A stretch of DNA of 23,950 nucleotides from positions 1 through 23,950 of IMG/VR virus record IMGVR_UViG_3300021085_000214, one strand, 5' to 3'. Shown piece by piece: positions 2,910-23,950 of the stretch (positions are counted from its first letter, which is position 1; each line of letters begins with the position of its first letter). The notes under the pieces are model-generated. The model made no database searches. It was not told the DNA's origin and saw only the letters and a list, made by a program, of their open reading frames with translations. A program made the position numbers and the translations under genes. Origin of the DNA: a virus.

Positions 2910-3116
2910 ATGTGTATGTCAGCACCCGATATTCCACCACCACCACCACCTCCAGCTCCTCCTCCTCCACCTCCTCCTGTCGCTGAAGGGTCTAAGACTG
3001 TTAGACAAACACAGCCTAAGAAGAAGAAGGTAGGAGCACAAGCACAACTCAAGCGTTCTGCTAGACCTACACTAGGTGGATCAAATGGTGGTACTGGTGT
3101 TTATATGTCTTCTTAA
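2910..3116 (+). CDS. Polyproline/basic small protein, T7 gp7.3-like (possible tail assembly)
   Basis: A 68-residue protein in three parts: an N-terminal MCMSAPD, a run of seven prolines, one alanine and seven more prolines (residues 9-23), then a Lys/Arg-rich middle and a Gly/Ser C-terminus of the form RSARPTLGGSNGGTGVYMSS. The C-terminal pattern (basic, then RS, then Gly-rich and a hydrophobic end) resembles T7 gp7.3, a small protein needed for tail assembly and adsorption, and the location just before the portal module is the same. The proline blocks should stall ribosomes unless EF-P is present. Homology to gp7.3 is an inference from position and C-terminal pattern; the N-terminal MCMSAP-polyproline form is common in podophages. 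Confidence 0.75.
   Translation: MCMSAPDIPPPPPPPAPPPPPPPVAEGSKTVRQTQPKKKKVGAQAQLKRSARPTLGGSNGGTGVYMSS
2934..2978 (+). repeat. CCN triplet repeat encoding Pro7-Ala-Pro7
   Basis: Fifteen codons, CCA- then CCT-rich, broken once by GCT. It is a coding microsatellite inside the gp7.3-like gene, prone to length change by slippage in steps of three bases, which would keep the frame. Confidence 0.9.
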
Positions 3117-3140: not shown

Positions 3141-3458
3141 ATGCTTCGCACACTCTCAAAAAAGACTTTGCTATCATCTGTCGTTGCGACAGGGGCTGGC
3201 AGTGAGTTCTCAGTAGAGCGTTCTAAGGGTTGGACCTTTGTGATCGCTTCTTCAGCTGTAACCACAGGAGGCACGGTAGACATTGAAGCCTACATCGGTG
3301 GTTCTTGGTTTGTTATACACAGTCAAGCTGTTACAGCTGATGGTTCTATCTTAGTAAGAGATGACCACGGACACTACGAACAGATCAGAGGAAATGTTTC
3401 AGCTAGGACTGACGGTACTTACAGCGTCTACGCTACAGGTACTACTGATTCTCTGTAA
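3141..3458 (+). CDS. Small beta-rich putative virion protein
   Basis: A 105-residue protein I cannot assign by name. It has alternating hydrophobic residues and many Gly, Thr and Val, with segments such as GTVDIEAYIGGSWFVIHS, then a VRDDHGHYEQIRGNVSA stretch and a TYSVYATG end. This is the pattern of small beta-sandwich domains often encoded beside phage portal or head-closure genes ('strand, turn, W-x-x-I, then Y-x-x-I/L-R-x-N-V'). No signal peptide or membrane segment. The leader is AT-rich with no Shine-Dalgarno. A role as minor head or decoration protein is an inference from context. Confidence 0.7.
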   Translation: MLRTLSKKTLLSSVVATGAGSEFSVERSKGWTFVIASSAVTTGGTVDIEAYIGGSWFVIHSQAVTADGSILVRDDHGHYEQIRGNVSARTDGTYSVYATGTTDSL

Positions 3459-3461
3459 GCA

Positions 3462-3734
3462 ATGTCTCTTACCTTTCCAACCGCTACTCTGAATCTTCCG
3501 AGTGGTTTAACTGTCATACCTAATGGATTCGTAAGACCTTCGTTTGGAACAACTTATGCATTTGATGAGGCAGCTACAGCAAGTACAACATTCCAAGCAG
3601 AGTATAACACAGAAGCTTATATACTAGCTGTAGTTTCTCCTGGTCTAGGACTAACTTACTTTGTTACTGACAAAGCTACACCTACTCTAGCTGTTTACGA
3701 TGGAACTGACTGGCAATATTACGAGGGAGTATAA
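3462..3734 (+). CDS. Small putative virion protein ending in a 'TD..L.VYDG.W' module
   Basis: A 90-residue protein lying 3 nt after the previous gene; its TAA overlaps the portal ATG (TAATG). The N-terminal part (MSLTFPTATLNLPSG) is hydrophobic and beta-prone. The last 25 or so residues have the form YFVTDKATPTLAVYDGTDWQ followed by YYEGV. This is the same short module that ends or sits inside three genes at the far right of the window (22991, 23221 and 23490), all near the fibre. The shared module suggests a common structural role, probably a small beta-hairpin/trimer contact in virion appendages. Function not known. Confidence 0.7.
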   Translation: MSLTFPTATLNLPSGLTVIPNGFVRPSFGTTYAFDEAATASTTFQAEYNTEAYILAVVSPGLGLTYFVTDKATPTLAVYDGTDWQYYEGV

Positions 3735-8851: not shown

Positions 8852-11800
8852 ATGCCACTGCTTAACACCAGTATTCCTAACCTTGCCCAAGGTGTATCAC
8901 AACAGCCTGACAATTTAAGATACCCTGGACAGTGTGATGAACAAGTTAATGCTTGGTCAACTGTAGTAGAAGGTCTAGTAAAAAGACCTAACAGTAGGTT
9001 CTTATATGATACTGACTTAGGTGCTAATGTTAGCTCTGATTTATTTAGTCACTATGTAGATAGAGATGAACAGAATAAATATGTTATTACCTATGACTCT
9101 GTTAACGGATTAAAAGCAAGAGACTTAACTGTCGATAACATTAGTGATGGTGATATGAGTATTACTATTGAAGATGCTACTGCTGGTGCTTACGTAGCTG
9201 TTTCTCTTGCTGGTAATCCTCTTAAAGACCTTACAGCTTTAACTATAGCAGACTCTACCTTTATTGTTAACAAAACTAAGACGGTAGAAGCACTATCAGT
9301 GTTACAAGAACCTTTAGAAAAGGAAGCTTTAATCTTTGTTAAACTAGGAGACTACGAAAAGGGTTACAGTATTTTTATAGACGGAGAATTAGTTCCTGTT
9401 GATACTGCTTTACACAATTATCACGAATATGCTCATACATCAGGAGCATCTCCTTCCACTTACATCAGTGGACCTAGTACACACGGACTACACGCTGATA
9501 CTGAGTTCATCGCTAAAGATTTAGAAACTTGTTTAAACACTAGGTTTCCTTCAGGTACTGTTAATGTGATGGATACAGTTTCAATTAGCTCTCCTAACGG
9601 AGGGTTGGGTTATCTTAAGCCTGTTAATCCTTATGTAACTGGTTACAAAGTAGAAGTAACTATCAATCAAACAGCAGGGTTATCAGGACCAGCACAGTCC
9701 GCAAAAGGAGAAGCTATTATAGATTCCAATGGTACGATAACTGGAGTTAATTTGACACACATCGGAGCTAATTTCGCATCGGCAGGTGTTATAGCATCCG
9801 CTGATTTACAAATTACTATTACAGAGTTAATAAAGAGCGTATACTTTGGAACGAGATGGTTTGATGTAAATGTTTTCGATAGTTATGTATCAAGGGTAAC
9901 ACTAGCTGCTAATACAGCTAATTGGGTATTTACGACAATTGCTAGTACTCCTTTTTCTATTGATCGTAAAGGAAGTGTAATCAAAGTAACGAACGCTTTA
10001 GACAAGGATTTTCAAATAAGAGTTACTGATGGACTGGCAGATCAAGGACTAGGTGTTATATATAAAGAAGTATCTAGCATTACAGACCTACCAGCTAATT
10101 GTTATAATGGTTTTAGAATCAAGATCATAGGCGATGCAGAGTTAGATCAAGATGATTACTATGTTAGTTTTAAGACTAAAGACAATGAAGACTTCGGGGA
10201 AGGTAGTTGGGTAGAAACAGCAGGGTGGACGCAAGACGGTTCTGCTACTGGTTCTAGTCAATATATTGATAATGCTTTAGACCAAGACACAATGCCTGTC
10301 CAACTATTTCCTGACCAAGCAACAGGTAAGATAACAAGCTTTACTTTAAAAGTTGTGGATTGGGCAGGTAGAAATTCAGGAGATGACAACAGTAACCCTC
10401 TTCCTTCCTTTAAAGGTACTAAGATCAATGACATCTTCTTCTTTAAGAACAGACTAGGATTCCTTACTAATGACTCAGTAGTGTTCTCAGAAGCAGATGA
10501 ATACTTTAATTTCTTCAGGACCACAACACAATCGTTACTTGACTCTGCTCCTATAGATGTAGGAATATCACACACTAAGATAAGCTTACTTAAATACGCA
10601 CAAGCGTTCCAAGAGAAGCTAATGTTATTCTCTGCGAAGACACAGTTTGTATTAAGAGGTGCAGACTTGTTAACACCTAAGACAGTTACGATCTCTCCAG
10701 TTACTGAGTACGATGTATCAGAAAGTATTAGACCGTTAGCATTGAGTAGTCACATATACTTTAACTTTAAAAGGAATAGCTTTGAAGGATTGTTAGAGTA
10801 CACTGTTGATAACAACACAGAGACCTACGGAGCAGCTGAGATAACAGAACAAGTTAATAAGTACATCCCTTCTAACATCGTAAGGATGGAAGGTAGTTCA
10901 TCAGAGAACATGATTATCATACAATCCGATAGCGACTATAAGAAGTTGTTTGTATATAAGTACTTTTGGCAAGGCAGAGAGAAGATACAGAGTTCCTGGA
11001 TGTCCTTTACTTTTGCTAGAGAAGTCAGAGCTTTTAAGTTTATTGAATCTACTTTGCATATCATTACCACAGACAGTGACGGTACTTACTTAGAGAAGAT
11101 ACCAATGGAGAATGGATTAGCAGAAACAGGTAGAGACTATGCTTTATTGTTAGACGGTAGAATACAAAGCAGCAGTACTAATTATATACAAAGTATAAAC
11201 TATACTAAGCTGAGTAGTACGACACCTCAAAGCTTTAACGGAACTAATCATACTGATGTTACTTACATGAGGTTTAGGAATAGCTTTTTGTTTAAAGAAG
11301 GCATGGCTATTTACTCTAAGAACGGAACAAGGAAAACAGTAACACGTCACTCTGTTAATGAGATCGAGATTTTAATTGACGGTAAGTTAGCTAATTATGT
11401 TAACTATAGCGGTTCACTTTATAAGTGTGTTGAAGGACATACCTCCTCCGCATCGATACTCCCTACAGATACTAACTATTGGCAACCTACTGTAGAAGTG
11501 GATTCAGCACCTGTATGGAGCGAGGAAGGTTACGAGTATTTAAGTGTGTATGATTACTTCATTGGATACGAGTACGATATGTTATACAGGTTCTCTAAGC
11601 AGAACTTAAAGCAACCTACAGAGAGAGGTGGACGATCTGCTTCTGATTATACTTATCAAACAATTCGTAACGGTAGTATTGAATACTCAGAGACAGGACA
11701 CTTTAATGTGGAAGTCACACCTAAGTTCAGAGATACATACACTTACACCTACAACCCAAGTTTGTTAGCCTCTGTCAGTACCCTTAATAAATTCACACCT

Positions 11801-11947
11801 GAGACTGGATTCTTTAAGTTTGCTGTTCAAGCTCAACCTAATGATGCTACGATAGAGATTAAATCTTCTAGTGCTTTACCAGTGAAGTTACTATCTGCTG
11901 AGTTTGAATCAACAATCATATCAAGGAGTAGACGCTATGGAGGTTAA
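8852..11947 (+). CDS. Tail tubular protein B / nozzle (T7 gp12-like), extended
   Basis: A 1031-residue protein, clearly longer than T7 gp12 (794). It forms the hexameric tail nozzle. The N-terminus (SIPNLAQGVSQQPDNLRYPGQ, QVNAWSTVVEGLVKRP) and the central block (FFKNRLGFLTNDSVVFSEADEY, then DSAPIDVGISHTK and EKLMLFSAKTQFVLRG) are diagnostic. Extra length includes a beta-rich insertion around residues 190-325 and a segment near residues 849-880 (G-S-L-Y-K-C-x-x-G-H-T-S-S ... D-T-N-Y-W-Q-P) resembling a CBM5/12-type carbohydrate-binding motif. It starts 2 nt after gp11's stop and its end overlaps the next gene by 11 nt. Confidence 0.95.
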   Translation: MPLLNTSIPNLAQGVSQQPDNLRYPGQCDEQVNAWSTVVEGLVKRPNSRFLYDTDLGANVSSDLFSHYVDRDEQNKYVITYDSVNGLKARDLTVDNISDGDMSITIEDATAGAYVAVSLAGNPLKDLTALTIADSTFIVNKTKTVEALSVLQEPLEKEALIFVKLGDYEKGYSIFIDGELVPVDTALHNYHEYAHTSGASPSTYISGPSTHGLHADTEFIAKDLETCLNTRFPSGTVNVMDTVSISSPNGGLGYLKPVNPYVTGYKVEVTINQTAGLSGPAQSAKGEAIIDSNGTITGVNLTHIGANFASAGVIASADLQITITELIKSVYFGTRWFDVNVFDSYVSRVTLAANTANWVFTTIASTPFSIDRKGSVIKVTNALDKDFQIRVTDGLADQGLGVIYKEVSSITDLPANCYNGFRIKIIGDAELDQDDYYVSFKTKDNEDFGEGSWVETAGWTQDGSATGSSQYIDNALDQDTMPVQLFPDQATGKITSFTLKVVDWAGRNSGDDNSNPLPSFKGTKINDIFFFKNRLGFLTNDSVVFSEADEYFNFFRTTTQSLLDSAPIDVGISHTKISLLKYAQAFQEKLMLFSAKTQFVLRGADLLTPKTVTISPVTEYDVSESIRPLALSSHIYFNFKRNSFEGLLEYTVDNNTETYGAAEITEQVNKYIPSNIVRMEGSSSENMIIIQSDSDYKKLFVYKYFWQGREKIQSSWMSFTFAREVRAFKFIESTLHIITTDSDGTYLEKIPMENGLAETGRDYALLLDGRIQSSSTNYIQSINYTKLSSTTPQSFNGTNHTDVTYMRFRNSFLFKEGMAIYSKNGTRKTVTRHSVNEIEILIDGKLANYVNYSGSLYKCVEGHTSSASILPTDTNYWQPTVEVDSAPVWSEEGYEYLSVYDYFIGYEYDMLYRFSKQNLKQPTERGGRSASDYTYQTIRNGSIEYSETGHFNVEVTPKFRDTYTYTYNPSLLASVSTLNKFTPETGFFKFAVQAQPNDATIEIKSSSALPVKLLSAEFESTIISRSRRYGG
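11923..11928 (+). promoter_or_regulatory. Shine-Dalgarno AAGGAG inside the gp12-like gene, sets the gp13-like start
   Basis: AAGGAG with an 8-nt spacer to the ATG at 11937. It supports that start over the in-frame ATG at 11904, which has no ribosome site. Confidence 0.75.
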
Positions 11948-13004: not shown

Positions 13005-14795
13005 ATGGCAGAACGAGTACAAGTACAAGGGTTAGGTGACGCAGTTCCAGGTATTCAACCTACTATTCAACGAGCAGGTCAATACAGTGTAGGTCAGCGT
13101 AGAGCTGGTAGGAATAAGTTGATGGACCTTGCTGATGCTTTGTCACAGGTTAATCCTATCTTACAACAGTACGGTAATATTCGTAGGTTAGAACAAGAAA
13201 GAAAGAAGTCGTTAGAAGAAGCACTAGAAAAAGAAGGTTACAGAGCTTATCAAACTGCTCCAGCTACTATGGCTGTTGAGTTAGAAAAGACACAAGCTAA
13301 GATTAGAGCTGCAACAGAGCGAGGTGAAATACCTGACGAAGCTAATGTACCTAGAATTATGGGTGCTTTGAAAGCTAAATCAGAAGTGTTAGCTAATAGA
13401 GATTACAGGAACATATTAATGAACCCTGAACTGTTAGAGAGTACAACTGATCCTGTAAAAGTAGTACAACAACAAAGAGAAGAGTTTTTAAAAAGAACAG
13501 AGTTTGAATCACCTAGTGTTAGAGATCATGTATTTCAACATTTAGAAAAAGTAGAGAACGAATTTGTAAATAAAGTAGAAAGTAGGTTGGCTGCTTTTGA
13601 AGTAGAGGAAGGTAAACAGAATTGGTTGCTTACTGGTAAAGACTCTGTAAGCCAAGTTATAAACGGAGAGCTAGATGTAAATGATCCCATTATTAAGAAC
13701 TGGATAAATAATCCAGCAGGGTTGTTTAAGGGGTCTAGGAAATACGCTTGGGATAACTTGATGAAGGAGGAGTTAAAGGAAGGGTTAACAAGTGGTGCAG
13801 TTAGTCCTACAAAAGCTGTTAAGTTCCTTGACAGTTTAAGAGAGTTAGATTTAGGTGGTGGAGTTAAATTTGCAGACGCTGAGACAGGCAATGCTATAAG
13901 TGACTTCTACGATGTGATTGAAAATCAAAGAGGTGTGTTAGAAAATAAAGCAGCACAGAAAGCTAATCTTGAGTTTGATTTATTAAATAACGGTCTTGTT
14001 GATTCGTTGCTAGAGTCATTAGGGGAAGGAAACAATGTATCGTCTGTTGACGCTAGAAATATAAGAGAGTCTTATTTATCTTCTTTACCCAAAGCAATCT
14101 CTAAAGAAAAAGCTATAGATACTTTTGATAAGATTCTCGGTAATGTTAATAAGCCAGGAAGCGATGCAACTAAATTAATTACAGGTAAACTAGATACTCT
14201 TATAGAGGAAGGACTTGAACTAGATGTAGCAGTTTCAGAAGTACAAAGCACGTTTGAAAGTGGAGGTATAACAGTTACGGATAGAAATAGATTGTTAAAA
14301 AAGATAGAGGACTCTAGGGACTTTGACAGGTTAATTTATAAGGCTGACTTTTACAGGAATATAATAACAGTAGATGAAGAATTAATAACAGGGTTTGTGA
14401 AAGAAAGAGCAGCTTTTAGTGGTGCGACTTATGAGGTAGGTTATTTCACTGAATTGGGAGCTGATAAGGGAGGTAAAAATGGTGTCTATGATTCTATTGT
14501 AGATAAAAAAACAACATTTGCTGCTAAATCTTTTGTTAACAGAAGATACAATGCTTATGAGTTATCGTTAAGAGAAGCTTTTGAAAGTAAATTTAAAAGG
14601 TACGAAAGTGATCCTTCATTTACTCCAGAGCAAGCACAAGAAAAATTAATAGAAGAATCTCAAGGAATAAGAGATCAAGTTTTTAAACAATGGGAGCGAG
14701 AATCGATTCTATTAGCTAACAGTACTTACGACTTAAATATCGTAGTGCAGCAGGAGGAATTTATCTCGCCTGGTGTTATGAAGAAACTTAAATAA
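13005..14795 (+). CDS. Internal virion protein C (T7 gp15-like)
   Basis: A 596-residue protein placed between gp14- and gp16-like genes, shorter than T7 gp15 (747). In T7 it forms the periplasmic conduit with gp16. It is mainly helical, charged and without membrane segments. The N-terminal RVQVQGLGDAVPGIQPT and QRAGQYSVGQRRAGRN segments resemble those of gp15 homologues in marine T7-like phages. It starts 2 nt after the gp14 stop without a Shine-Dalgarno. Identity rests on order, size and N-terminal pattern rather than on a catalytic motif. Confidence 0.85.
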   Translation: MAERVQVQGLGDAVPGIQPTIQRAGQYSVGQRRAGRNKLMDLADALSQVNPILQQYGNIRRLEQERKKSLEEALEKEGYRAYQTAPATMAVELEKTQAKIRAATERGEIPDEANVPRIMGALKAKSEVLANRDYRNILMNPELLESTTDPVKVVQQQREEFLKRTEFESPSVRDHVFQHLEKVENEFVNKVESRLAAFEVEEGKQNWLLTGKDSVSQVINGELDVNDPIIKNWINNPAGLFKGSRKYAWDNLMKEELKEGLTSGAVSPTKAVKFLDSLRELDLGGGVKFADAETGNAISDFYDVIENQRGVLENKAAQKANLEFDLLNNGLVDSLLESLGEGNNVSSVDARNIRESYLSSLPKAISKEKAIDTFDKILGNVNKPGSDATKLITGKLDTLIEEGLELDVAVSEVQSTFESGGITVTDRNRLLKKIEDSRDFDRLIYKADFYRNIITVDEELITGFVKERAAFSGATYEVGYFTELGADKGGKNGVYDSIVDKKTTFAAKSFVNRRYNAYELSLREAFESKFKRYESDPSFTPEQAQEKLIEESQGIRDQVFKQWERESILLANSTYDLNIVVQQEEFISPGVMKKLK

Positions 14796-14800
14796 TTATT

Positions 14801-17800
14801 ATGGCTAAAGAAGAAACAGAACTTGAGAACATAGAAAGCAAAGCACCTGCTCTTAGTCAGGAAGAATTTCAGTTACTAAGTGAAGACCAACCAATCACTC
14901 AAGAACAAAAGGCTAAAGGTATTGCAGAGTTTAAAGAACAAGCTAAACCTGTTTTTAAAGCAGCTGAAGAAAGTATGCTTGAGGGAGTTCGTACAGGACA
15001 ACCTGTCAGAGCGGAAGAAATAACAGGGCAACAGCAACAAGAACCCAAGCAAAAGTACGAAGTACCTACTACTTTACCTGACCACGGTATTCGAGGTTTA
15101 TATACTCCTGAAGAACAGATTTTAGATAGAGCAACTCAGATAACAGGTCTACCTCCTGAAAGCCCAGCTAATCACTATATAGCACAGGCATTAGCCAAAG
15201 GTGATCCTTTCAGTGCTGCTTCGATGGAAGCTGCTAAAGAAGAAACAATGAAGCTTGTTAGAGCTGGTATCATACCCAACCCTGACTACGAAGGTTTTGG
15301 TGGGTTTCTCAGTGAAGCTGTAGATGTTGCTGGTCCGATAGCAGTTGAAATAGGATTGCCTATGTTCACAGGTATCGTGTCATCTCCTTTGTTAATTTCT
15401 CCTGAACCCTTTTCAAAAGCAGGTTGGATAGGACTTCAAGCTTCTTCTTCTACCTTTGCTAATCTACTAGCTCAACAGATGCGTATATCTTCTGGAATGC
15501 AGAAAGATACATCGTATATGGAAGCAGCAGCAGCAGGGGCTTTTGGTTTAGTTCCAGGATTAAAGACAGGTAAAGATTTAAGTACTGCTGCTACAGTAGG
15601 TATAAGAGCTGCTGAAGGTGCTTTCATGGCTGGAGGGGAAGATTTAACTCGTCAAGGTCTACAGATTTTATTTGAAGAAAGAGAAGGTTTTAAACCTATG
15701 GAGACTCTCACTGCTGTTGGAGTGGGTGCTGGACTTGGATCAGGTTTAGGTAGGTTAGAAAAAGCTTTAGTATCTTACACTCCTAAGAAAGACCCCGCTG
15801 CTCCTATATTAAGGAAAGCACTACAAGATGAGTTAAAGGAAGTTAAGAAAGAATTACAAAGGACAGAGAAGCGTGGAGCTGTTAATGTAGAAGCTAGGGA
15901 TAAGGTCAAGCAGATCGAAGATAAGATTAACGCTTTAAAGCCTGATGAGGAAAGAGTGTTACAACAAGCTATTGATAGTCTTGATGAAGCTGAACAGAAA
16001 CAAGCACAAGAAGTAGCAGCAGCAGCTGAAGAGTTTCAACAAAGTGAAGCAGCTAAGATATTTAAAGAAGCGGATGAACCTACTGTAGCTGTTAAAGAAC
16101 AAGAAGCACCTACCACTACTCAAAAACCACAAGAAGAAGTTAGTGTTGAAGCAAAGGAAATTGTAGATGACTTTATGTCTGGTGGTGGTACTCGTGATGT
16201 AGACCCTGAGACAGGTAAACTTAAAGATAGTGAAGACGAAGTAAAAGCTAGGTTGTTAACAAGCGACACTGAAAAGCAAAGACTTATCAACGCTGTTACT
16301 AGAGCTATTGATACTGACTTAAAGAATGTTAAAGGTGGAAGAGTAGGTAAACTACAATACTTAGCTAAGGTTCAACAAGAGTTAAACAGAAGGTTAGGTA
16401 AAGAAGCAGGTGATGAATTTGCTCTTGTCATGAAAGCTTCTCAAGTATCTGACAATGCCCAAGTAGCTGATGCTATCGATCAACTAGGAGTACACATGGC
16501 AGCTAACGGTGCTATCATGGTACAAGGTTTTGATGATGTATTGAAGTTCTTAGACGGTGCTGACTTAAATAATAAAGAAGTTCTCAACAATGCAATGGTA
16601 AGTATTCATAAGTTAATACCTGCTATGATGGGTTGGAAGAAAGCTGGTTCTGCTTCAGGTAGGTTATTACAATCAAGGAAGTACGAGAAAGACATCATTG
16701 AGATAAAACAGGAACACTTAAAAGAAAAGTTAGAAGGTAACTTAGTAAGCAGTCTAAAAGAAGCTAAAGATTTAAACCCTGAACAGCTTGAACAACAAAT
16801 TAAAACATTTGGAGATATACAAGTAGTTAAGAAGCTATTACAAGCTGTTCAACAAGCTGAAGATATTTCTGAAGTCAAAGATATATTAATTAAACAACAA
16901 GAAGCTTTTCAAAGTAAATCAGCTAAAGCAGTTGCTAAGAAACTGTTAAACTCTCCTTATGAACCAGGTGAAGGGGGAAGTACTTACACTAAAGTTAGAG
17001 ATGTTGCTTCTGATGTAGCTTACGCTAGTATGTTAAGTAGTCCAGTTACACCCGCTAAAGTTGCTATATCTAATAAGCTTATGTCTGGTTATAATGTACT
17101 AGCAGGAGCTGTAGGGGCTAAGTTTATGGCTACTGTACCTTGGTCGAGGAATGGATTAACAAGACAACAGTTTGAAGAAGCAGGGGCTTTTTGGTCTAAA
17201 GTATCAAGTTCATACGGTAATTTTTCGGAGATAGCTAATAAAGAAGCTTTAAGAGTTTTAAAAACAGGAGATGCAGATTTACAATCACACTTTGAAAGAA
17301 TAGGTGAGTCAGCTCTTTCTATGGAGCGTACTGGTCTTACAGGTGCTTTTGGTCAAACCGTAGAGAATGTAGGTAGGTTTGTTGATATTCCTGGTAAAGT
17401 ATTGGCAGCAGTAGATGTGCGTACAAGACTTAACATTGCACATTCTATGACTAGAGCTAAAGCTGAAATGGATTACATAGCAGCTAAAAAAGCAGGTGAG
17501 GATGTAGGTACTTTACAAGATTACTATGACAAGTTCGTAGCTAAAGTATTTAACGAGTCTAAAACAAAAATGCTCAACGAGGACCAAGTAAGAAGAAAAG
17601 CAGTCTTAATGGCAGAGCAAGAAGGTGTTAAAGCTGAAGACCTAGCATCTTATATTGATAACTTTGTTAAAGATAATTGGAATAAAAACACAAGTAGTTT
17701 CGTTGATTTTGTTAACAGGAACTTAAAGGAAGTTACTTTTACTGAGGAGATAGGTGAGTTTGCTGAAGCTGGTTGGAAACAAAGAGCAAAAGAAGGAGCA

Positions 17801-19474
17801 CCGATATTGGGCGATCCTAATGTAATAGAAAGAGGAAGCAGACACATTGAATCTTTCTTAAAGACATATCCATTACTTCACGTTGTATTAAATCCTTTCA
17901 TGCGTACTGGTCGTAATATAACTAGAGGAGCAATGGCTTCTACAAGTTCTCTTGTTTCAGTCGCTAATGCTACATCTAAAATCCCGGGAGTTAACAAACT
18001 TAAAATAGATAGGATAGCTGAGAGGTTGTGGAGTAAGACAGCTAAAGATTTAGCAAGTGATGATCCTATCGTAGTAGCTAGAGCAAAAGGGCAACAGATT
18101 GTAGGTGCTGGTGTTATATTAGCAGCTATAGGATTATCTGAAGGAGTTGAAGATGTATTTGAATTTGTAGGTACAGAAAGCCAAGATTGGAAAAAGAAGA
18201 AGAATATCAGAGCTGCGACAGGAATGCCTGAATATACTTTGAGAGTAGGTAAAGAAGGAGAAAAGGTTGCTATTAGTCTAGCTGCTTTAGAACCTTTAAA
18301 CACCATCCTAAGTATTACAGCTGATATGAAGACTCTTAACAACGGTACTGTTGCACAAAGAGAAGAAGCTAGAGGTTTAATGGAAGCAGCTGCTTTAGCT
18401 ATTACAAATAACATAGCAAACAAGTCTTACTATAAAAACTTAGGAGATGCTATTAAACTTGTAACACAAGCTACAGATAGTTCCGAAGCAACTAGCAGAG
18501 AGTCTTTTAAGTTGTTGAAGAGTCTAGGAAGTACTTTTGTTCCTTCCGCTGCCAATACATTAAACTATATGTCTGATGATATCATCCGCGAGAACAATAC
18601 ATTATTGCAAGTCATAGCGAGAAGAATGAACGGTCTTTCTAAGCTTGTACCTCCGATGCGTGATATATTTGGAGATGTACAGACAAGAGGATTTAAGCAA
18701 AGGAAGATAGGAGGTTTGGCTTTGTTGTCTCCCTTTGGTGTGTTTACTCAGAAAGGTTCTGTAGATAAGTATGTAGACATTGACGCTGAGACTGAATTTA
18801 GAACTCTTAACATTCCTAAGATAACAAAAGCTAGTGTAAGAAAAGAAATTGCTAAAGACGGTAGAACAAAAATAACACCTGAAGTTTTAGAAGATGCGTA
18901 TCAAGCTAAGATAAGTGAAGCTGCTGCTGCTGTTATAGTAGAACTAGGAGGTACACACCACTTCAACGGAGGCACTTCTAAATGGGAAGGTATGGACTTA
19001 GAGGAAATCATACATCCTGAGACACAACAAAATGCTTTTGATAGATGGCAAGAATTAACCACTCAAGTTAAACTTAACCCAATAACTGGAAACTCTTCTA
19101 AAACAGGTAAAACTTTAAAAGAGATGATTGTTGCTGTTTCTAGTCAAACGGACTTTAAGAAAAGGGTAGCACCTAAAGGAGCTTTGCCTGAAAGGTTTGA
19201 ACAAGAAGATAAGAGACTTGATGCTATACGATCTATTTTTAAAGGTTACAGAGACAATGCGAGATACCAACTCCTAGAAGAGTATCCGATACTTATGGAA
19301 GACATAGAAGCTAGAGGAGAGTTACAAGAGCAATTAAGCAAACCTGCCGATACCCTAGAAGAACAAAGAGAATTAGAAAAGGCTTTACCTGGTACTGAGT
19401 TCCCTTTGGAGAGTTATAAGAAGACACAGCGTCCTTCTTTATTAGAAGAAAGATTACTGCCTTTCAGAAACTAG
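14801..19474 (+). CDS. Internal virion protein D (T7 gp16-like ejection protein), no transglycosylase domain seen
   Basis: A 1557-residue protein, the largest in the window (T7 gp16: 1318). By order it is the inner-core protein that, with gp14 and gp15, builds the trans-envelope channel and helps pull in DNA. The N-terminus is acidic and Gln-rich, a Gly/Ala-rich hydrophobic region is around residues 165-320, a long coiled-coil region lies at about 330-430, and a hydrophobic patch (IVGAGVILAAIGL) is near 1097. The N-terminal lytic transglycosylase of T7 gp16 (catalytic Glu with GLMQ-type motif) is not visible anywhere. The C-terminus ends LEERLLPFRN. Leader AT-rich with no Shine-Dalgarno. Confidence 0.87.
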   Translation: MAKEETELENIESKAPALSQEEFQLLSEDQPITQEQKAKGIAEFKEQAKPVFKAAEESMLEGVRTGQPVRAEEITGQQQQEPKQKYEVPTTLPDHGIRGLYTPEEQILDRATQITGLPPESPANHYIAQALAKGDPFSAASMEAAKEETMKLVRAGIIPNPDYEGFGGFLSEAVDVAGPIAVEIGLPMFTGIVSSPLLISPEPFSKAGWIGLQASSSTFANLLAQQMRISSGMQKDTSYMEAAAAGAFGLVPGLKTGKDLSTAATVGIRAAEGAFMAGGEDLTRQGLQILFEEREGFKPMETLTAVGVGAGLGSGLGRLEKALVSYTPKKDPAAPILRKALQDELKEVKKELQRTEKRGAVNVEARDKVKQIEDKINALKPDEERVLQQAIDSLDEAEQKQAQEVAAAAEEFQQSEAAKIFKEADEPTVAVKEQEAPTTTQKPQEEVSVEAKEIVDDFMSGGGTRDVDPETGKLKDSEDEVKARLLTSDTEKQRLINAVTRAIDTDLKNVKGGRVGKLQYLAKVQQELNRRLGKEAGDEFALVMKASQVSDNAQVADAIDQLGVHMAANGAIMVQGFDDVLKFLDGADLNNKEVLNNAMVSIHKLIPAMMGWKKAGSASGRLLQSRKYEKDIIEIKQEHLKEKLEGNLVSSLKEAKDLNPEQLEQQIKTFGDIQVVKKLLQAVQQAEDISEVKDILIKQQEAFQSKSAKAVAKKLLNSPYEPGEGGSTYTKVRDVASDVAYASMLSSPVTPAKVAISNKLMSGYNVLAGAVGAKFMATVPWSRNGLTRQQFEEAGAFWSKVSSSYGNFSEIANKEALRVLKTGDADLQSHFERIGESALSMERTGLTGAFGQTVENVGRFVDIPGKVLAAVDVRTRLNIAHSMTRAKAEMDYIAAKKAGEDVGTLQDYYDKFVAKVFNESKTKMLNEDQVRRKAVLMAEQEGVKAEDLASYIDNFVKDNWNKNTSSFVDFVNRNLKEVTFTEEIGEFAEAGWKQRAKEGAPILGDPNVIERGSRHIESFLKTYPLLHVVLNPFMRTGRNITRGAMASTSSLVSVANATSKIPGVNKLKIDRIAERLWSKTAKDLASDDPIVVARAKGQQIVGAGVILAAIGLSEGVEDVFEFVGTESQDWKKKKNIRAATGMPEYTLRVGKEGEKVAISLAALEPLNTILSITADMKTLNNGTVAQREEARGLMEAAALAITNNIANKSYYKNLGDAIKLVTQATDSSEATSRESFKLLKSLGSTFVPSAANTLNYMSDDIIRENNTLLQVIARRMNGLSKLVPPMRDIFGDVQTRGFKQRKIGGLALLSPFGVFTQKGSVDKYVDIDAETEFRTLNIPKITKASVRKEIAKDGRTKITPEVLEDAYQAKISEAAAAVIVELGGTHHFNGGTSKWEGMDLEEIIHPETQQNAFDRWQELTTQVKLNPITGNSSKTGKTLKEMIVAVSSQTDFKKRVAPKGALPERFEQEDKRLDAIRSIFKGYRDNARYQLLEEYPILMEDIEARGELQEQLSKPADTLEEQRELEKALPGTEFPLESYKKTQRPSLLEERLLPFRN

Positions 19475-19513
19475 CTTGAACTTTTATCACAAACAAACTA
19501 ATAATAGATTACC

Positions 19514-21826
19514 ATGGCTAATACATACGTAGACTACACAGTTGGAGCAAGTCAGACGGACTTTGCATTCTCCTTTCCTTATCTTGATGACACTCATGTA
19601 GTTGTACAGCTAGACGATTCAACAGTTGATTCTCCAGGAGGTAAGTTTTATACTGTTTCTACAGGAGATTATTCTATTATCACATCCCCTTCTGCTCTTA
19701 TTAGGTTCACTACTGCTCCTGAAACTGGTGCTAGGATAAGAATCAAAAGAGATAGTGCATCTGATACTGCTCTTGTAGACTTTGAGAATGGTAGTGTACT
19801 TACTGAAGTAGAACTAGATCGTGCTTACTTACATAACTTATATCTGAGCGAAGAGATTGAAGAGGGTAGTGGTAAGAACACGATGACTAAAGACCCTGTT
19901 GATGGGAACTACGATGCTGATTTATCCAAGATTAAAAACCTTGCTGATCCTACAAACCCACAAGATGCAGTAACTAAGAACTACGCTGATACTACTTTTG
20001 TTGATGTTGCTGGTGACACGATGACTGGTAACTTGGACATGGGTTCTAATAAGGTTACTTCTTCTGCTGTTCCTGGTACTGGTAATGATCTTACTAACAA
20101 GACTTATGTAGACGGTCAAGACGCACTGCAAGTTACTAAAGCAGGTGACAATATGACAGGTGACTTAGCTATGGGTGGTAACATGGTCAGTGGTTTAGGT
20201 GCTCCTATTAGTAGTGATCACTCTGCTCGTAAGGGTTATGTAGACCAACAAGACGCTCTTCAAGTTACCAAGGCAGGAGATTCAATGTCAGGTACTTTGG
20301 CTATGGGTGTTAATAAAGTAACTTCTGCTGCTGTTCCTACTGTTGGTACTGATTTAACTAATAAGACTTATGTTGATAGTGTTGATATTTTAAAGGTAAA
20401 CAAAAGCGGAGACACGATGAGTGGTACGCTGGACATGGGAACTAATAAAATAGCGAATGTTCTTGATCCTTTAAATGCTCAGGAAGCTGCTACTAAAAAA
20501 TATGTGGATGATACTATCACTACATCTTTTGCCACAGGGACTCCACCTCCAGCCAATCAGATAGGTACAAATACTATTACTGATTCTGCAATCACAACAG
20601 AGAAGATCAATAACTCCTCTATCACAACAGAGAAGATTAACGATGGGGCTATCACTGCTGACAAGCTTGCTAACACTGCTGTTACTCCAGGAGCTTATAC
20701 TGCTACTAATTTAACAGTAGATGCACAAGGAAGGATTACAGCTGCTGCGAACGGTAGTCCTTCTCCTACGGCTGCTGAGGTTAAGACCTTATATGAAAGC
20801 AACGCGAACACTAATGAGTATGATGATACTGAACAAACGAAGTTGGCAGGTATTGCAGCAGGTGCAACCGTTAATGATACAGACTCTAACTTAAAGAACA
20901 GGGCTAATCACACAGGTACTCAACTTGCTTCTACTATATCGGACTTTGACACGGAGGTTTCTAATAACTCTTCTGTTGCAGCTAATACGGCAAAAGTAGG
21001 ACTAAACGGACCAGTACAAAACGATTCTGTCATTGGACCAAATACTAATGATGTTGTTTATGGAGATGCTAGTACTTTTGAAAATGCAGGTTCAGGCACT
21101 ATTAATAGCACTATGTTTGGACGCTCTGCTGGTCAATGTATCGACGCAAGTTCGGGATTAGCTAATAGGAATACAGCATTAGGGCAGTCGGCTTTAGGGT
21201 TGATTTCTTATACTCAACCTACTCCTAATGCAATTGACGGTAATACTGCTGTAGGGGGTTTATCTTTAGTTAATTGCACAGGAAGTTTTAATACTGTTGT
21301 AGGTTCAAGTTCAGCTTATTCTGGTGGTAGTGCTTATGCACATTCAAACACTACAGTTTTAGGTTCTGGTACTACAGCCACTGGAGATAATCAAGTAGTA
21401 TTAGGCGACACAAGCGTTACAACTTTAAAATGTAATGTCACAAGTATTACTTCACTGTCTGATGAAAGAACAAAAGAGAATATTGAAGATAGTACTTTAG
21501 GTTTAGAGTTTATCAATGAACTTAAAACAAAAACTTTTAACAAGAAAAACCCTGCTGACTGGGAGGAAGGTATCTTAGAAGAACGTTATCAAGACAAGAA
21601 CAGCGAGGAGTATAAGAGACCTTCAGATAACCCAGCTACTTATACAGGTTTAATTGCACAAGAAGTTAAAGGTGTGCTGGATAAATTAAACATAGGTGAA
21701 TGGGATGGTTGGGATGAAGAACCTAACGGAGTACAAAGACTAGGTTACGGTGCTCTTGTCATGCCTTTAATTAAAGCTGTTCAAGAACTCTCTGCACAAG
21801 TAGAAGATTTAAAAAGTAAAATCTAA
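19514..21826 (+). CDS. Tail fibre: T7 gp17 N-terminal anchor, fibre repeats, YadA-like head, S74 chaperone
   Basis: A 770-residue receptor-binding fibre. Residues 1-115 match the T7 tail-fibre N-terminal domain ([50 protein letters not shown]), which docks to the tail. Residues 129-333 hold one degenerate and four clear repeats of the G-D-x-M-x-G-x-L-x-M-G type with a 44-residue period. Residues 340-490 carry TEKIN repeats, a [13 protein letters not shown] motif and an HTGTQ-x-x-x-TISDF motif. Residues 535-640 show N-T-x-V-G/L-G repeats like YadA heads. From Ser649 (SDERTKENI) to the end is a peptidase_S74 intramolecular chaperone expected to fold trimers and cut itself off before Ser649, ending in a coiled coil. 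Confidence 0.95.
19898..20512 (+). repeat. Tail-fibre repeats with 132-nt (44-residue) period
   Basis: In-frame repeats inside the fibre gene. Units at residues 166-209, 210-253, 254-297 and 298-333 (partial) share A/S-G-D-x-M-x-G-x-L-x-M-G-x-N at the start and K-x-Y-V-D at the end; residues 129-165 are a degenerate copy. The exact 44-residue spacing suggests duplication of whole units, as in phage fibre shafts. Confidence 0.9.
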
Positions 21827-22077
21827 TGACTGAACAACTCTCACACTTTCTCGACACTGCTCTAGCTGTTATTCTAGGTGTCATTGGTTGGATGATTAAG
21901 AAGCTGACTGATCGACTAGACAACGATGAAAAAAGGTTAACAAGTATTGAAGTAGAACTTGCTACTCAAAGAGAACGAGACACTGCTGTGGAGAATAGAA
22001 TGAGTGGTCTTGAAACTACTGTTAAAGAGATCAACGGTAAACTAGATAGAATGATGGAGATATTAATTAAACGATGA
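21826..22077 (+). CDS. Holin-like membrane/coiled-coil protein (BhlA/UviB-like topology)
   Basis: An 83-residue protein starting on the fibre stop (TAATG overlap), the place where T7 has its holin gene 17.5. Residues 9-25 form one transmembrane helix (LDTALAVILGVIGWMI), flanked by KK on the C-terminal side, then a charged coiled coil runs to the end (residues 27-82, ending MMEILIKR). The positive-inside rule puts the coiled coil in the cytoplasm, which disfavours an i-spanin and matches the small BhlA/UviB holin-like proteins. Function as holin is inferred from topology and position. ATGA overlap joins it to the next gene. Confidence 0.65.
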   Translation: MTEQLSHFLDTALAVILGVIGWMIKKLTDRLDNDEKRLTSIEVELATQRERDTAVENRMSGLETTVKEINGKLDRMMEILIKR

Positions 22078-22196
22078 AAAAAGGATTATACGCAAACATT
22101 AACAGAAGAAGGAAGCTAGGCATTAGTCGTAGCAAAAAGAAGTCTACAATATCACCTAACTCTTACGCTAATATGAAGAGTGGGTTTAAAAAGTGA
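22074..22196 (+). CDS. 40-residue basic phage peptide (MKKGLYANI-type)
   Basis: A very short gene starting in an ATGA overlap with the holin-like gene and ending in a GTGA overlap with the next. The product is basic, beginning MKKGLYANINRRRKLGISRS, with SKKKSTISPNSYANMKSGF near the end. I recognise this pattern (MKKGLYANI ... SP..YANMK.GF) from small conserved proteins of marine phages. Both stop/start overlaps and the conserved look support a real gene. Function unknown; a nucleic acid or ribosome contact is possible given the charge. Confidence 0.75.
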   Translation: MKKGLYANINRRRKLGISRSKKKSTISPNSYANMKSGFKK

Positions 22197-22432
22197 GAAG
22201 TGTATCTATATCTTTAAGAGCTTCTGATAAATCAGCTAAAGGTGGTCTTAGTGAGTCAGGAAGGAATCGGATCAACAAGGCTACAGGTTCTAACTTAAAA
22301 GCCCCTCAGCCTGGTGGTGGTCCTAGGAAGCGTAGCTTCTGTGCTCGTATGAGTGGTAACAAAGGACCTATGAAAGACTCTAAAGGTAAACCCACTAGAA
22401 AAGCCTTAGCTCTTAGACGTTGGAAGTGTTAG
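22193..22432 (+). CDS. DUF6321-like small basic protein
   Basis: A 79-residue protein with a GTG start overlapping the previous TGA. The sequence SAKGGLSESGRNRINKATG, then LKAP and a Gly/Pro turn, then KRSFCARMSGNKGPMKDSKG, and KPTRKALALRRWKC matches a domain common in marine tailed phages that I know as DUF6321. Two cysteines (C50, C79) and many Arg/Lys suggest nucleic acid or metal binding, but there is no known function. The downstream gene follows the stop immediately. Confidence 0.82.
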   Translation: MRSVSISLRASDKSAKGGLSESGRNRINKATGSNLKAPQPGGGPRKRSFCARMSGNKGPMKDSKGKPTRKALALRRWKC

Positions 22433-22654
22433 ATGCCTAGAAGACCTGTAGTTCGTGTTCACCCTCTTACTTTTCAAAGTAGGACTATCGCTGCGTCTGC
22501 TGGTGCGGTAGCTACGGACAACAAAGAAAAAGCAGATACTTTAGAATCACAAGTAGAATCCTTAGAGAATGAACCTTTCTTTGCCATCCTTGATGGTGGT
22601 GCTCCAGTAATGGAGGAAACTGATATATTTGACGGAGGATTAATTGATGCCTAA
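22433..22654 (+). CDS. Small acidic protein of unknown function
   Basis: A 73-residue protein whose ATG follows the preceding TAG without a gap. The N-terminus is basic (MPRRPVVRVHPLTFQSR), then an Ala-rich helix, a short Glu-rich coil (KADTLESQVESLENEPFF), and an acidic end (EETDIFDGGLIDA). Its last 8 nt overlap the next gene, and the GGAGG of that gene lies within it. I do not recognise a family. A virion assembly or adaptor role next to fibre genes is possible. Confidence 0.65.
   Translation: MPRRPVVRVHPLTFQSRTIAASAGAVATDNKEKADTLESQVESLENEPFFAILDGGAPVMEETDIFDGGLIDA
22634..22638 (+). promoter_or_regulatory. Shine-Dalgarno GGAGG for the Mtd-N-like gene
   Basis: GGAGG with an 8-nt spacer to the ATG at 22647. 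It selects that ATG over the in-frame TTG at 22644. Confidence 0.75.
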
Positions 22655-22976
22655 CTTTACGAAACGAATACAACTTAGAAGAGGAGAATCCTCTTTATGG
22701 GAATCCACTAACCCTGTTTTATTAGCAGGTGAATTTGGGATTGACTTAACTAACAAGCGTGTCAAATTGGGTGACGGTGTCACTACTTGGAACAGTCTTA
22801 CCTATCTTGGACCAGTACAGACTGTTGCAGGGAGAACTGGAAATATCATTCTTCAAAACGATGATGTGTTTGGTTCTGCTTCTCAAGTTAGCTTACACTC
22901 AGTAGAAACAGACCTAAGTAATCTTCGTGGCGAATTAGGAGACATGGATGATTATACGTCAGGATTAACCAACTAA
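22647..22976 (+). CDS. Mtd-N-like / hyaluronidase-type phage tail appendage protein
   Basis: A 109-residue protein. Residues 1-55 match the small domain found at the N-terminus of Mtd and many phage fibres: RIQLRRGESSLWES, NPVLLAGEFGID, then KLGDGVTTWNSLTYL. Residues 56-80 carry a second common fibre motif, TVAGRTGNIILQNDDV, followed by a short helix. This looks like an adaptor that attaches other fibre parts; on its own it lacks a receptor-binding lectin domain, which may be supplied by the following genes. The start has GGAGG at 22634-22638. Confidence 0.82.
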   Translation: MPNFTKRIQLRRGESSLWESTNPVLLAGEFGIDLTNKRVKLGDGVTTWNSLTYLGPVQTVAGRTGNIILQNDDVFGSASQVSLHSVETDLSNLRGELGDMDDYTSGLTN

Positions 22977-22990
22977 AATGAATATAAATA

Positions 22991-23179
22991 ATGAGCGTAT
23001 GGTATCAAATGGGACAAGCAGTAAGAAACGTTTTAACAACTCTATCAAACAAAGCGATATTAGACACAGAGAGTAACATCCAAGCTAGGACTGGTGATGA
23101 ACTAGGAGCGATGGCTTTTGCTACAGATACAAGTAAACTCTATGTTTATACAAGTAGTGGATGGGTACACGCTCAATAA
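22991..23179 (+). CDS. Small fibre-module protein 1 (ends in 'ATDTSKLYVY..GW')
   Basis: A 62-residue protein beginning MSVWYQMGQAVRNVL, then RTGDELGAMAFATDTSKLYVY and a short SSGW tail. The motif R-T-G-D-x-x-G-x-x-x-F-x-T/S-D-x-x-x-x-Y-V-Y-x-x-x-x-W is shared with the next gene, and a looser form with the third gene and with the gene at 3462. No signal peptide or membrane helix. The leader is AT-rich with no Shine-Dalgarno. Probably a small virion appendage part, as it follows the fibre and Mtd-N-like genes. Function inferred from neighbours only. Confidence 0.7.
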   Translation: MSVWYQMGQAVRNVLTTLSNKAILDTESNIQARTGDELGAMAFATDTSKLYVYTSSGWVHAQ

Positions 23180-23220
23180 CTTTGACACTTTTTAAATTAT
23201 AACTTAAAACTAAATACACA

Positions 23221-23478
23221 ATGGCAAACATTCTACAACAGATCGGTACAGTAGTTAAAAGCAAGCTTGATGATAAAGTCGATAAGACTGATGCAACAGG
23301 TGACTTTATTAAGGCTGTACTAGGAATAGACACTGACACAACAACACCAACAGTTGCACTTGAATCCGATATAACTACAAGGACAGGAGATGCTAACGGC
23401 ACTTTGTTCTTTGGTTCTGACTCCGCTGACTTCTATGTCTATAACGGAGGAACTTGGTATCAATTCAACAACTCTTAA
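23221..23478 (+). CDS. Small fibre-module protein 2 (ends in 'GSDSADFYVYNGGTWY')
   Basis: An 85-residue paralogue of the previous gene. N-terminus MANILQQIGTVVKSKLDDKV parallels that of its neighbour (x-x-G-x-x-V-x-x-x-L), followed by an insertion GDFIKAVLGIDTDTTTPTVAL and then the shared RTGDANGTLFFGSDSADFYVY module with the GGTWYQF end. Local repetition suggests tandem duplication. A 41-nt AT-rich gap (23180-23220) with no ribosome site precedes it. Confidence 0.7.
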   Translation: MANILQQIGTVVKSKLDDKVDKTDATGDFIKAVLGIDTDTTTPTVALESDITTRTGDANGTLFFGSDSADFYVYNGGTWYQFNNS

Positions 23479-23489
23479 AACAATATAAT

Positions 23490-23950
23490 ATGAGCGATAT
23501 AGCATTAATTAATGACTCCCAGCAATCTGCGATTGTAAGTAATGGGATAGGTAAGAATGGAGAGATATACATGAAGGCAGCTGGCAGTACGGACGCTGGT
23601 GCTCTTGTTGTATATGACGCAGGTAATTGGAGGAAGTTTGAACATGAAGCTAGTTCTTCCTTTAGTAATGCATACAGTGTAGATTTTGATGGCACTAATG
23701 ACTACATCCAACTGCCCAATGGCGTTCTAACTGCACTTTCAGGTACTGCCTACACGATAAGTGCGTGGTACAATTTAGATATAGTAGGGTATTATCAAAT
23801 GATTTTTACTGCTAGTAGTAATTTGCAAGTATACTTTAGACCTAGAACCCCACAGGTAGGACTAGAACTTTGGGTTAATGGATCGAGTCGGATAATTCAA
23901 AACACTCCATATAGTAGTGTGGGTTCATGGGTTCACGGTTGTATTTCAGT
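23490..23950 (+). CDS. LamG/concanavalin-like lectin fused to the fibre module (3' truncated by window)
   Basis: An open frame from the ATG at 23490 to the window end, 153 codons so far. Residues 1-55 contain the loose module (NGEIYMKAAG, then ALVVYDAGNWRKFE). From about residue 60 the pattern SVDFDGTNDYIQLP, then YTISAWYNLD, and later GLELWVNG and GSWVHG, is that of LamG-like/concanavalin A-like jelly-roll domains (Laminin_G_3), which bind glycans. This suggests a receptor-binding or decorating adhesin that uses the short module as its attachment end. The domain's end lies beyond the window. Confidence 0.8.
   Translation, partial: MSDIALINDSQQSAIVSNGIGKNGEIYMKAAGSTDAGALVVYDAGNWRKFEHEASSSFSNAYSVDFDGTNDYIQLPNGVLTALSGTAYTISAWYNLDIVGYYQMIFTASSNLQVYFRPRTPQVGLELWVNGSSRIIQNTPYSSVGSWVHGCIS

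Follow-up and report, generated by a model that had tools for sequence, protein, structure and literature searches.

A probable multi-slot receptor-binding locus with exchangeable lectin heads in uncultured marine T7-like phages

What is built from a row of very small, mutually similar genes that leads from the tail fibre region of a T7-like phage into a lectin-like gene? The stretch of DNA analysed here (the window) is a virus fragment of 23,950 bp, recognisably T7-like by its DNA polymerase A, exonuclease, portal, nozzle (8852-11947), gp14-like protein and gp17-type fibre. Its right end falls inside the last of three consecutive genes that an earlier note had read as interchangeable appendage parts, built around one docking module and ending in a LamG lectin. 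The three reading frames are real: those at 22991-23179 (62 aa), 23221-23478 (85 aa) and 23490 to the window end (153 aa, open) are intact in more than 70 related contigs. They are named M62, M85 and LECA below. The reading that we prefer, with a probability of roughly two in three, is that uncultured marine T7-like phages have here a multi-slot receptor-binding locus, in which constant adaptors are combined with exchangeable lectin heads and class-matched accessories. The features on which the argument turns are the following.

3141..3458, + strand: conserved 105-aa gene, the upstream border of slot C
3462..3734, + strand: slot C stem (90 aa), directly 5′ of the portal gene; module present, headless in the window phage, lectin-filled in relatives
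19514..21826, + strand: gp17-like tail fibre with S74 chaperone domain (PF03906 and PF13884)
22433..22654, + strand: P73, small block-conserved protein, by its conserved position
22647..22976, + strand: Mtd_N-domain protein (109 aa), member of the conserved block (PF18454, E = 3e-12; conserved position)
22991..23179, + strand: M62, constant small adaptor (62 aa) with an N-terminal helix-like segment and a beta module (median dN/dS 0.089)
23221..23478, + strand: M85, constant small adaptor (85 aa) with predicted helices at residues 2-19 and 25-34 and a beta module at 44-82 (median dN/dS 0.111)
23490..23648, + strand: LECA stem (residues 1-53), constant N-terminal part, slot A; 95.7% mean identity in the close group, module strands at 25-29, 39-43 and 46-49
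23649..23950, + strand: LECA head (residues 54 onward, cut by the contig end), LamG/ConA-like jelly roll and exchanged part, by PF13385, fold and swapping

The conserved block and its three slots

A second contig, L004, is 100% identical to window positions 13221-23950 (10,730 bp) and extends 2.6 kb beyond them, and therefore completes the locus. It carries the whole of LECA (273 aa), followed by S77 (77 aa), LECB (47 aa), F412 (a 412-aa fibre whose repeats resemble a coiled coil), a ribbon-helix-helix-like protein (RHH) and the small terminase. That the series seemed to end in a LamG lectin was thus due to where the contig stops: LECA is followed by S77, LECB, F412, RHH and the terminase genes. 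Extension past 23950 did reveal a further module gene, the 47-aa LECB (LECB47), with a profile score of 33 against 16.8 for shuffled profiles. The complete block reads TF-holin-P73-Mtd_N-M62-M85-LECA-S77-LECB-F412-RHH-TerS-TerL, and the same gene order was found, to the extent of each contig, in about 70-75 of the 80 loci detected with M85; these loci are mutually related, so such counts overstate independence. All small genes tested are under purifying selection (dN/dS 0.08-0.24). The Mtd_N protein is conserved in the close group (98.5% identity); the gp17-like fibre also varies among relatives (45% mean identity in the same group).

None of about 50,700 deposited phage records matched M85, LECA, P73 or the 105-aa border gene, common as these are in virome contigs, and M85 had no relative in 84,980 bacterial species genomes. 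Judged by its portal, AP013544 is the nearest deposited genome; the block is missing between its fibre and terminase genes. Two further queries, an 86-aa slot C stem and a 171-aa adaptor from L079, had no match among isolates.

Lectin-type genes occur at three positions. Slot A is LECA itself. Slot B is LECB, which bears a head in 11 loci and consists of a 47-aa stub in 60 others. Slot C lies about 19 kb upstream of slot A, with the 105-aa gene on one side and the portal gene on the other. The window, five other loci and the relative holding L002 have a headless stem of 90 aa there, and in most other relatives the slot contains lectins, beta-helix-like proteins and accessory genes. Two slots can be filled together: A and C in one 39-kb relative (listed for G004/L021), and A and B in the relative with L002, where slot C is empty. 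Counting gp17, several receptor-binding-type proteins are thereby encoded in one genome. In slot C of L125, L137, L176 and L183, proteins ending RLRPSSPCINAGTAS resemble beta-helix (lyase-type) domains instead of lectins.

The position of slot C next to the portal gene bears on the main rival to a receptor-binding locus, namely that lectins and adaptors decorate the capsid or a head vertex, not the tail, and serve adhesion to particles, mucus or polymers and not host selection. Several PHROG neighbours classed as 'head and packaging' or head decoration point the same way. Slots A and B, however, lie in the tail-fibre/lysis/terminase region beside gp17 and the Mtd_N protein; hypervariable heads on a constant backbone are what selection by host receptors predicts; and the metavirome islands of marine phages are likewise enriched in host-recognition genes (PMC3909814). 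A capsid location is thus regarded as unlikely, while being the alternative to take most seriously. Considerably less probable is that the proteins act in or on the infected cell, for example by blocking receptors against superinfection. The small size of many of them would suit such a role, but the late structural position, the fibre partner, the fibre-type beta modules and the lectin heads fit virion parts better.

Constant adaptors and a recurrent module

In the preferred reading, a receptor-binding locus, M62 and M85 are constant parts. M62 is 62-64 aa long across 72 loci and M85 exactly 85 aa in 75; each has 37 invariant positions and is under strong purifying selection, and both are headless in every locus of the main block (70+), their architecture being constant. 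The view of M62, M85 and the lectin as interchangeable parts was not supported: exchange is confined to heads, those borne on the stems of LECA, LECB and slot C. The same figures bear on the idea that M62 and M85 are functionless, decayed stubs of former lectin genes. LECB and the slot C stem, which exist headless yet bear heads in relatives, lend it some colour; the absence of heads from all 70+ loci, the nearly fixed length, the invariant positions and a dN/dS of about 0.1 make it very improbable.

The motif reported for all three genes held clearly for two of them. Over a module of about 40 residues, none of 2000 shuffles reached the real M62-M85 score, and the profile-profile comparison, judged like the others against column-shuffled controls, gave 66 (shuffled maximum 15.7). 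For the N-terminal 55 aa of LECA, 6 of 2000 shuffles reached the score against M62 and 1 of 2000 that against M85; the profile-profile score was 23 with M85 (14.7 shuffled) and a non-significant 13.4 with M62. Judged by these comparisons, the shared module is certain in M62 and M85 and marginal in LECA. Two clearer members had been overlooked: LECB47, beyond the window, and the slot C gene at 3462-3734, whose stem family scores 62-92 against M62/M85 (shuffled maximum 15.5).

A docking function had been assigned to this module. LECB47, however, has matches in 35 PHROG families and in 287 phage records, and the C-terminal module reads as one form of a short beta motif that is frequent among phage fibre proteins; being so widespread in fibres, it need not be the docking part. 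A better candidate lies at the other end of the proteins. An N-terminal segment of the form xxIGQxxKS is common to M62, M85 and F412 (profile scores 25.6 and 33.8, shuffled maximum about 11), and what had been called an N-terminal plug corresponds in M85 to a predicted helix at residues 2-19. As this helix recurs in three otherwise different proteins, we infer that it is the docking element. The same helix motif was also seen in distant phages (L078-L081), where a 171-aa M85-like protein is paired with a 333-aa F412-like fibre and both carry it.

A fold search with M85 gave nothing significant (best E 0.015). The Mtd_N profile (PF18454) had no match in M62, M85 or LECA at the Pfam cut-off, and LECB47 reached E 0.00096 against it, which is below the cut-off. 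A common Mtd_N origin for all modules was not supported, the Mtd_N protein scoring at chance against M62 and M85 both in profile scores and in shuffles.

Exchange of lectin heads between phages and slots

The third protein was correctly recognised as containing a LamG-like jelly roll: PF13385 matches the window fragment with E = 6e-9 and the full 273 aa with E = 4e-25 (1-151 of 151), and fold matches agree. The LECA model (mean pLDDT 84.5) places a small beta module at residues 25-49, a jelly roll at about 63-206 and a C-terminal beta segment behind it. Its fold matches include pentraxins, an AbnA domain, 4dqa and other carbohydrate-binding ConA-like folds, together with unstudied marine virus proteins. 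The best match to full LECA, A0A0F7LB22 (BFVD; E 3e-18, TM 0.71/0.66), is a LamG-like jelly-roll protein of an uncultured marine virus; it was also the second, non-significant, match of M85, and differs from LECA in sharing 25% identity and in being itself unstudied.

Lectin heads are exchanged among near-identical phages and between slots. Within the close group, identity in LECA is 95.7% over residues 1-53, drops to 38% in the head and rises again to 87% over the last 30 residues. Among 78 pairs of loci with backbones at least 97% identical, the median head identity was 34%, and 79% of the pairs fell below 50%. Across 62 loci, stem identity correlated with backbone identity (0.46) and head identity did not (0.07); the 86 heads form 55 clusters at 60% identity. 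The region is hypervariable while the backbones are near-identical, as in metaviromic islands. The proposal of an adhesin-type locus of several components, its lectin heads swapped like cassettes among relatives, is supported by this direct record of head exchange.

Heads are also shared across slots. The slot B head of L062 and the slot A head of L073 have 99.2% DNA identity over 715 bp, while the surrounding blocks are only 85-96% identical; those in slot A of L011 and slot C of L141 are 95.4% identical over 635 bp. The window's own LECA head has 88.4% DNA identity over 621 bp with slot C of L124, and 82% amino acid identity with slot B of L002. A shared stretch of the L062/L073 type starts just after the stem and stops at or near the stop codon, so the conserved flanks are likely the site of recombination. 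An M85-LECA-S77-type cassette was also noted at the contig end of L051, where the phage backbone is apparently different, which suggests cassette transfer between phage groups.

The pattern of divergence tells against targeted hypermutation by a diversity-generating retroelement as the source of head diversity, a notion to which the Mtd_N domain protein in the block might lead and which we consider barely credible: the divergence of heads extends over their whole length and includes indels, what different slots share are whole blocks, the Mtd_N protein itself is conserved, and no reverse transcriptase was found in any of 11 related records, some of them fragments.

Accessory proteins, proposed mechanism and known systems

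Small genes accompany the heads. In slot B, an S77-type accessory follows 8 of 8 heads and 0 of 59 stubs; over all loci, 116 of 120 S77-type genes lie directly behind LamG heads. For a second family, K (MKYS..GKWKxD), the preceding head belonged to another ConA-like class in 10 of 15 cases. After dereplication, with accessory and head classes assigned by profile scores, the counts were 77/1 against 5/7 (Fisher p = 8e-7). The exceptions are five K genes after LamG heads and one S gene after the other class; near-identical heads may also precede different S variants. In L024 and L054 the head is not of LamG type, and a 61-aa accessory replaces S77. The pairing recurs in the isolate S-SKS1, where an S77-like gene stands behind a protein with four LamG domains, and in L202, a Bacteroidota MAG contig (binned Chitinophagaceae) that is probably a phage and holds the one S77 relative found in bacterial genomes, after three tandem ConA-like proteins. 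In Flavobacterium phage immuto, the protein encoded ahead of the S77-like gene matches nothing in Pfam. S77 itself gave no match in Pfam or PHROG and no homology to a known chaperone family, yet it lies directly downstream of, and is co-inherited with, a receptor-binding-type protein, as expected of a chaperone. By analogy, an assembly chaperone or cap is its likeliest role.

For a receptor-binding locus, a working scheme can be proposed. M62, M85 and F412 would probably dock to the tail, or to each other, by their common N-terminal helix, and the small adaptors with F412 would form a fixed platform. To this would attach LECA, whose stem is constant and whose exchangeable LamG head probably binds glycans on the host surface, and also optional further lectins: those of slot B, which sit on the downstream LECB stem, and those of slot C, encoded ahead of the portal gene. 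The accessory encoded right behind a head (S77, or another family for other head classes) would probably aid folding, assembly or capping. Recombination at the conserved sequences of stem and tail would carry heads from slot to slot and from phage to phage, and the exchange of heads would shift host recognition. A stronger version, to which we lean less than to the foregoing and which is offered tentatively, is a plug-in adhesin rack: the tiny adaptors would provide at least three docking positions per T7-like virion, and heads with their class-matched accessories would circulate from slot to slot and across unrelated families of marine phages.

Parts of this arrangement have precedents. The available part of one report describes metaviromic islands of marine phages in which carbohydrate-binding or lectin-like genes and tail fibres vary between near-identical phages; slot architecture, constant adaptors, head sharing across slots and head-accessory pairing do not figure in that part (PMC3909814). 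Branched complexes of several receptor-binding proteins (RBPs) are known from the Ackermannviridae (TSP1-4; PMC11414711) and from the T7-like phage KP32, whose gp37 and gp38 are two stacked RBPs (PMC8262889). As there, several receptor-binding proteins would here be joined by conserved N-terminal docking parts and carry exchangeable distal domains, docking being presumed for the present locus. The proteins of those systems are large tailspikes that carry gp10-like XD domains or anchor domains, whereas the presumed docking parts here are separate proteins of 62-85 aa and the heads are LamG lectins; a Pfam search found no gp10-like XD or gp9/10-type docking domain. In Alteromonas phages V22 and A5, a tail fibre and its cognate chaperone or cap form modules common to different phage families (PMC10579305). 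The likeness is a small gene right behind the receptor-binding protein that moves with it between unrelated phages; S77 and K differ in having no detectable relation to known families and in being tied to a head class, not to one fibre.

The earlier statement that no T7-like system of this form had been described is thus only partly right, given the stacked RBPs of KP32 (PMC8262889) and the lectin-type hypervariable islands of marine phages (PMC3909814). Hypervariable lectin-type genes in marine phages and branched multi-RBP tails, including that of a T7-like phage, are already known. What appears to be new are the tiny invariant adaptors, the presence of three slots, the recurrence of the same heads on other stems and the accessory families matched to head classes. 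The locus gives lectin hypervariability in marine phages an anatomy: which parts are fixed, which are swapped, where the swaps begin and end, and which small genes accompany which heads. Host assignment from head type, and the role of the S77-like proteins, become directly testable.

Three further genes of the window were noted. At 709-1158, directly 3′ of the DNA polymerase gene, lies an Endonuclease VII-type gene (PF02945, E 3e-25); it is missing from the corresponding place in the relative holding L002 and is therefore likely a mobile insertion. Just 5′ of slot C, at 2910-3116, a short proline-rich protein with a Gly/Ser-rich tail is encoded, in a position that we take to be like that of T7 gene 7.3. 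The gene at 22193-22432 encodes a basic Cys-containing protein that matches the C-terminal ends of several PHROG families, and in relatives other small basic Cys-rich proteins occupy its place.
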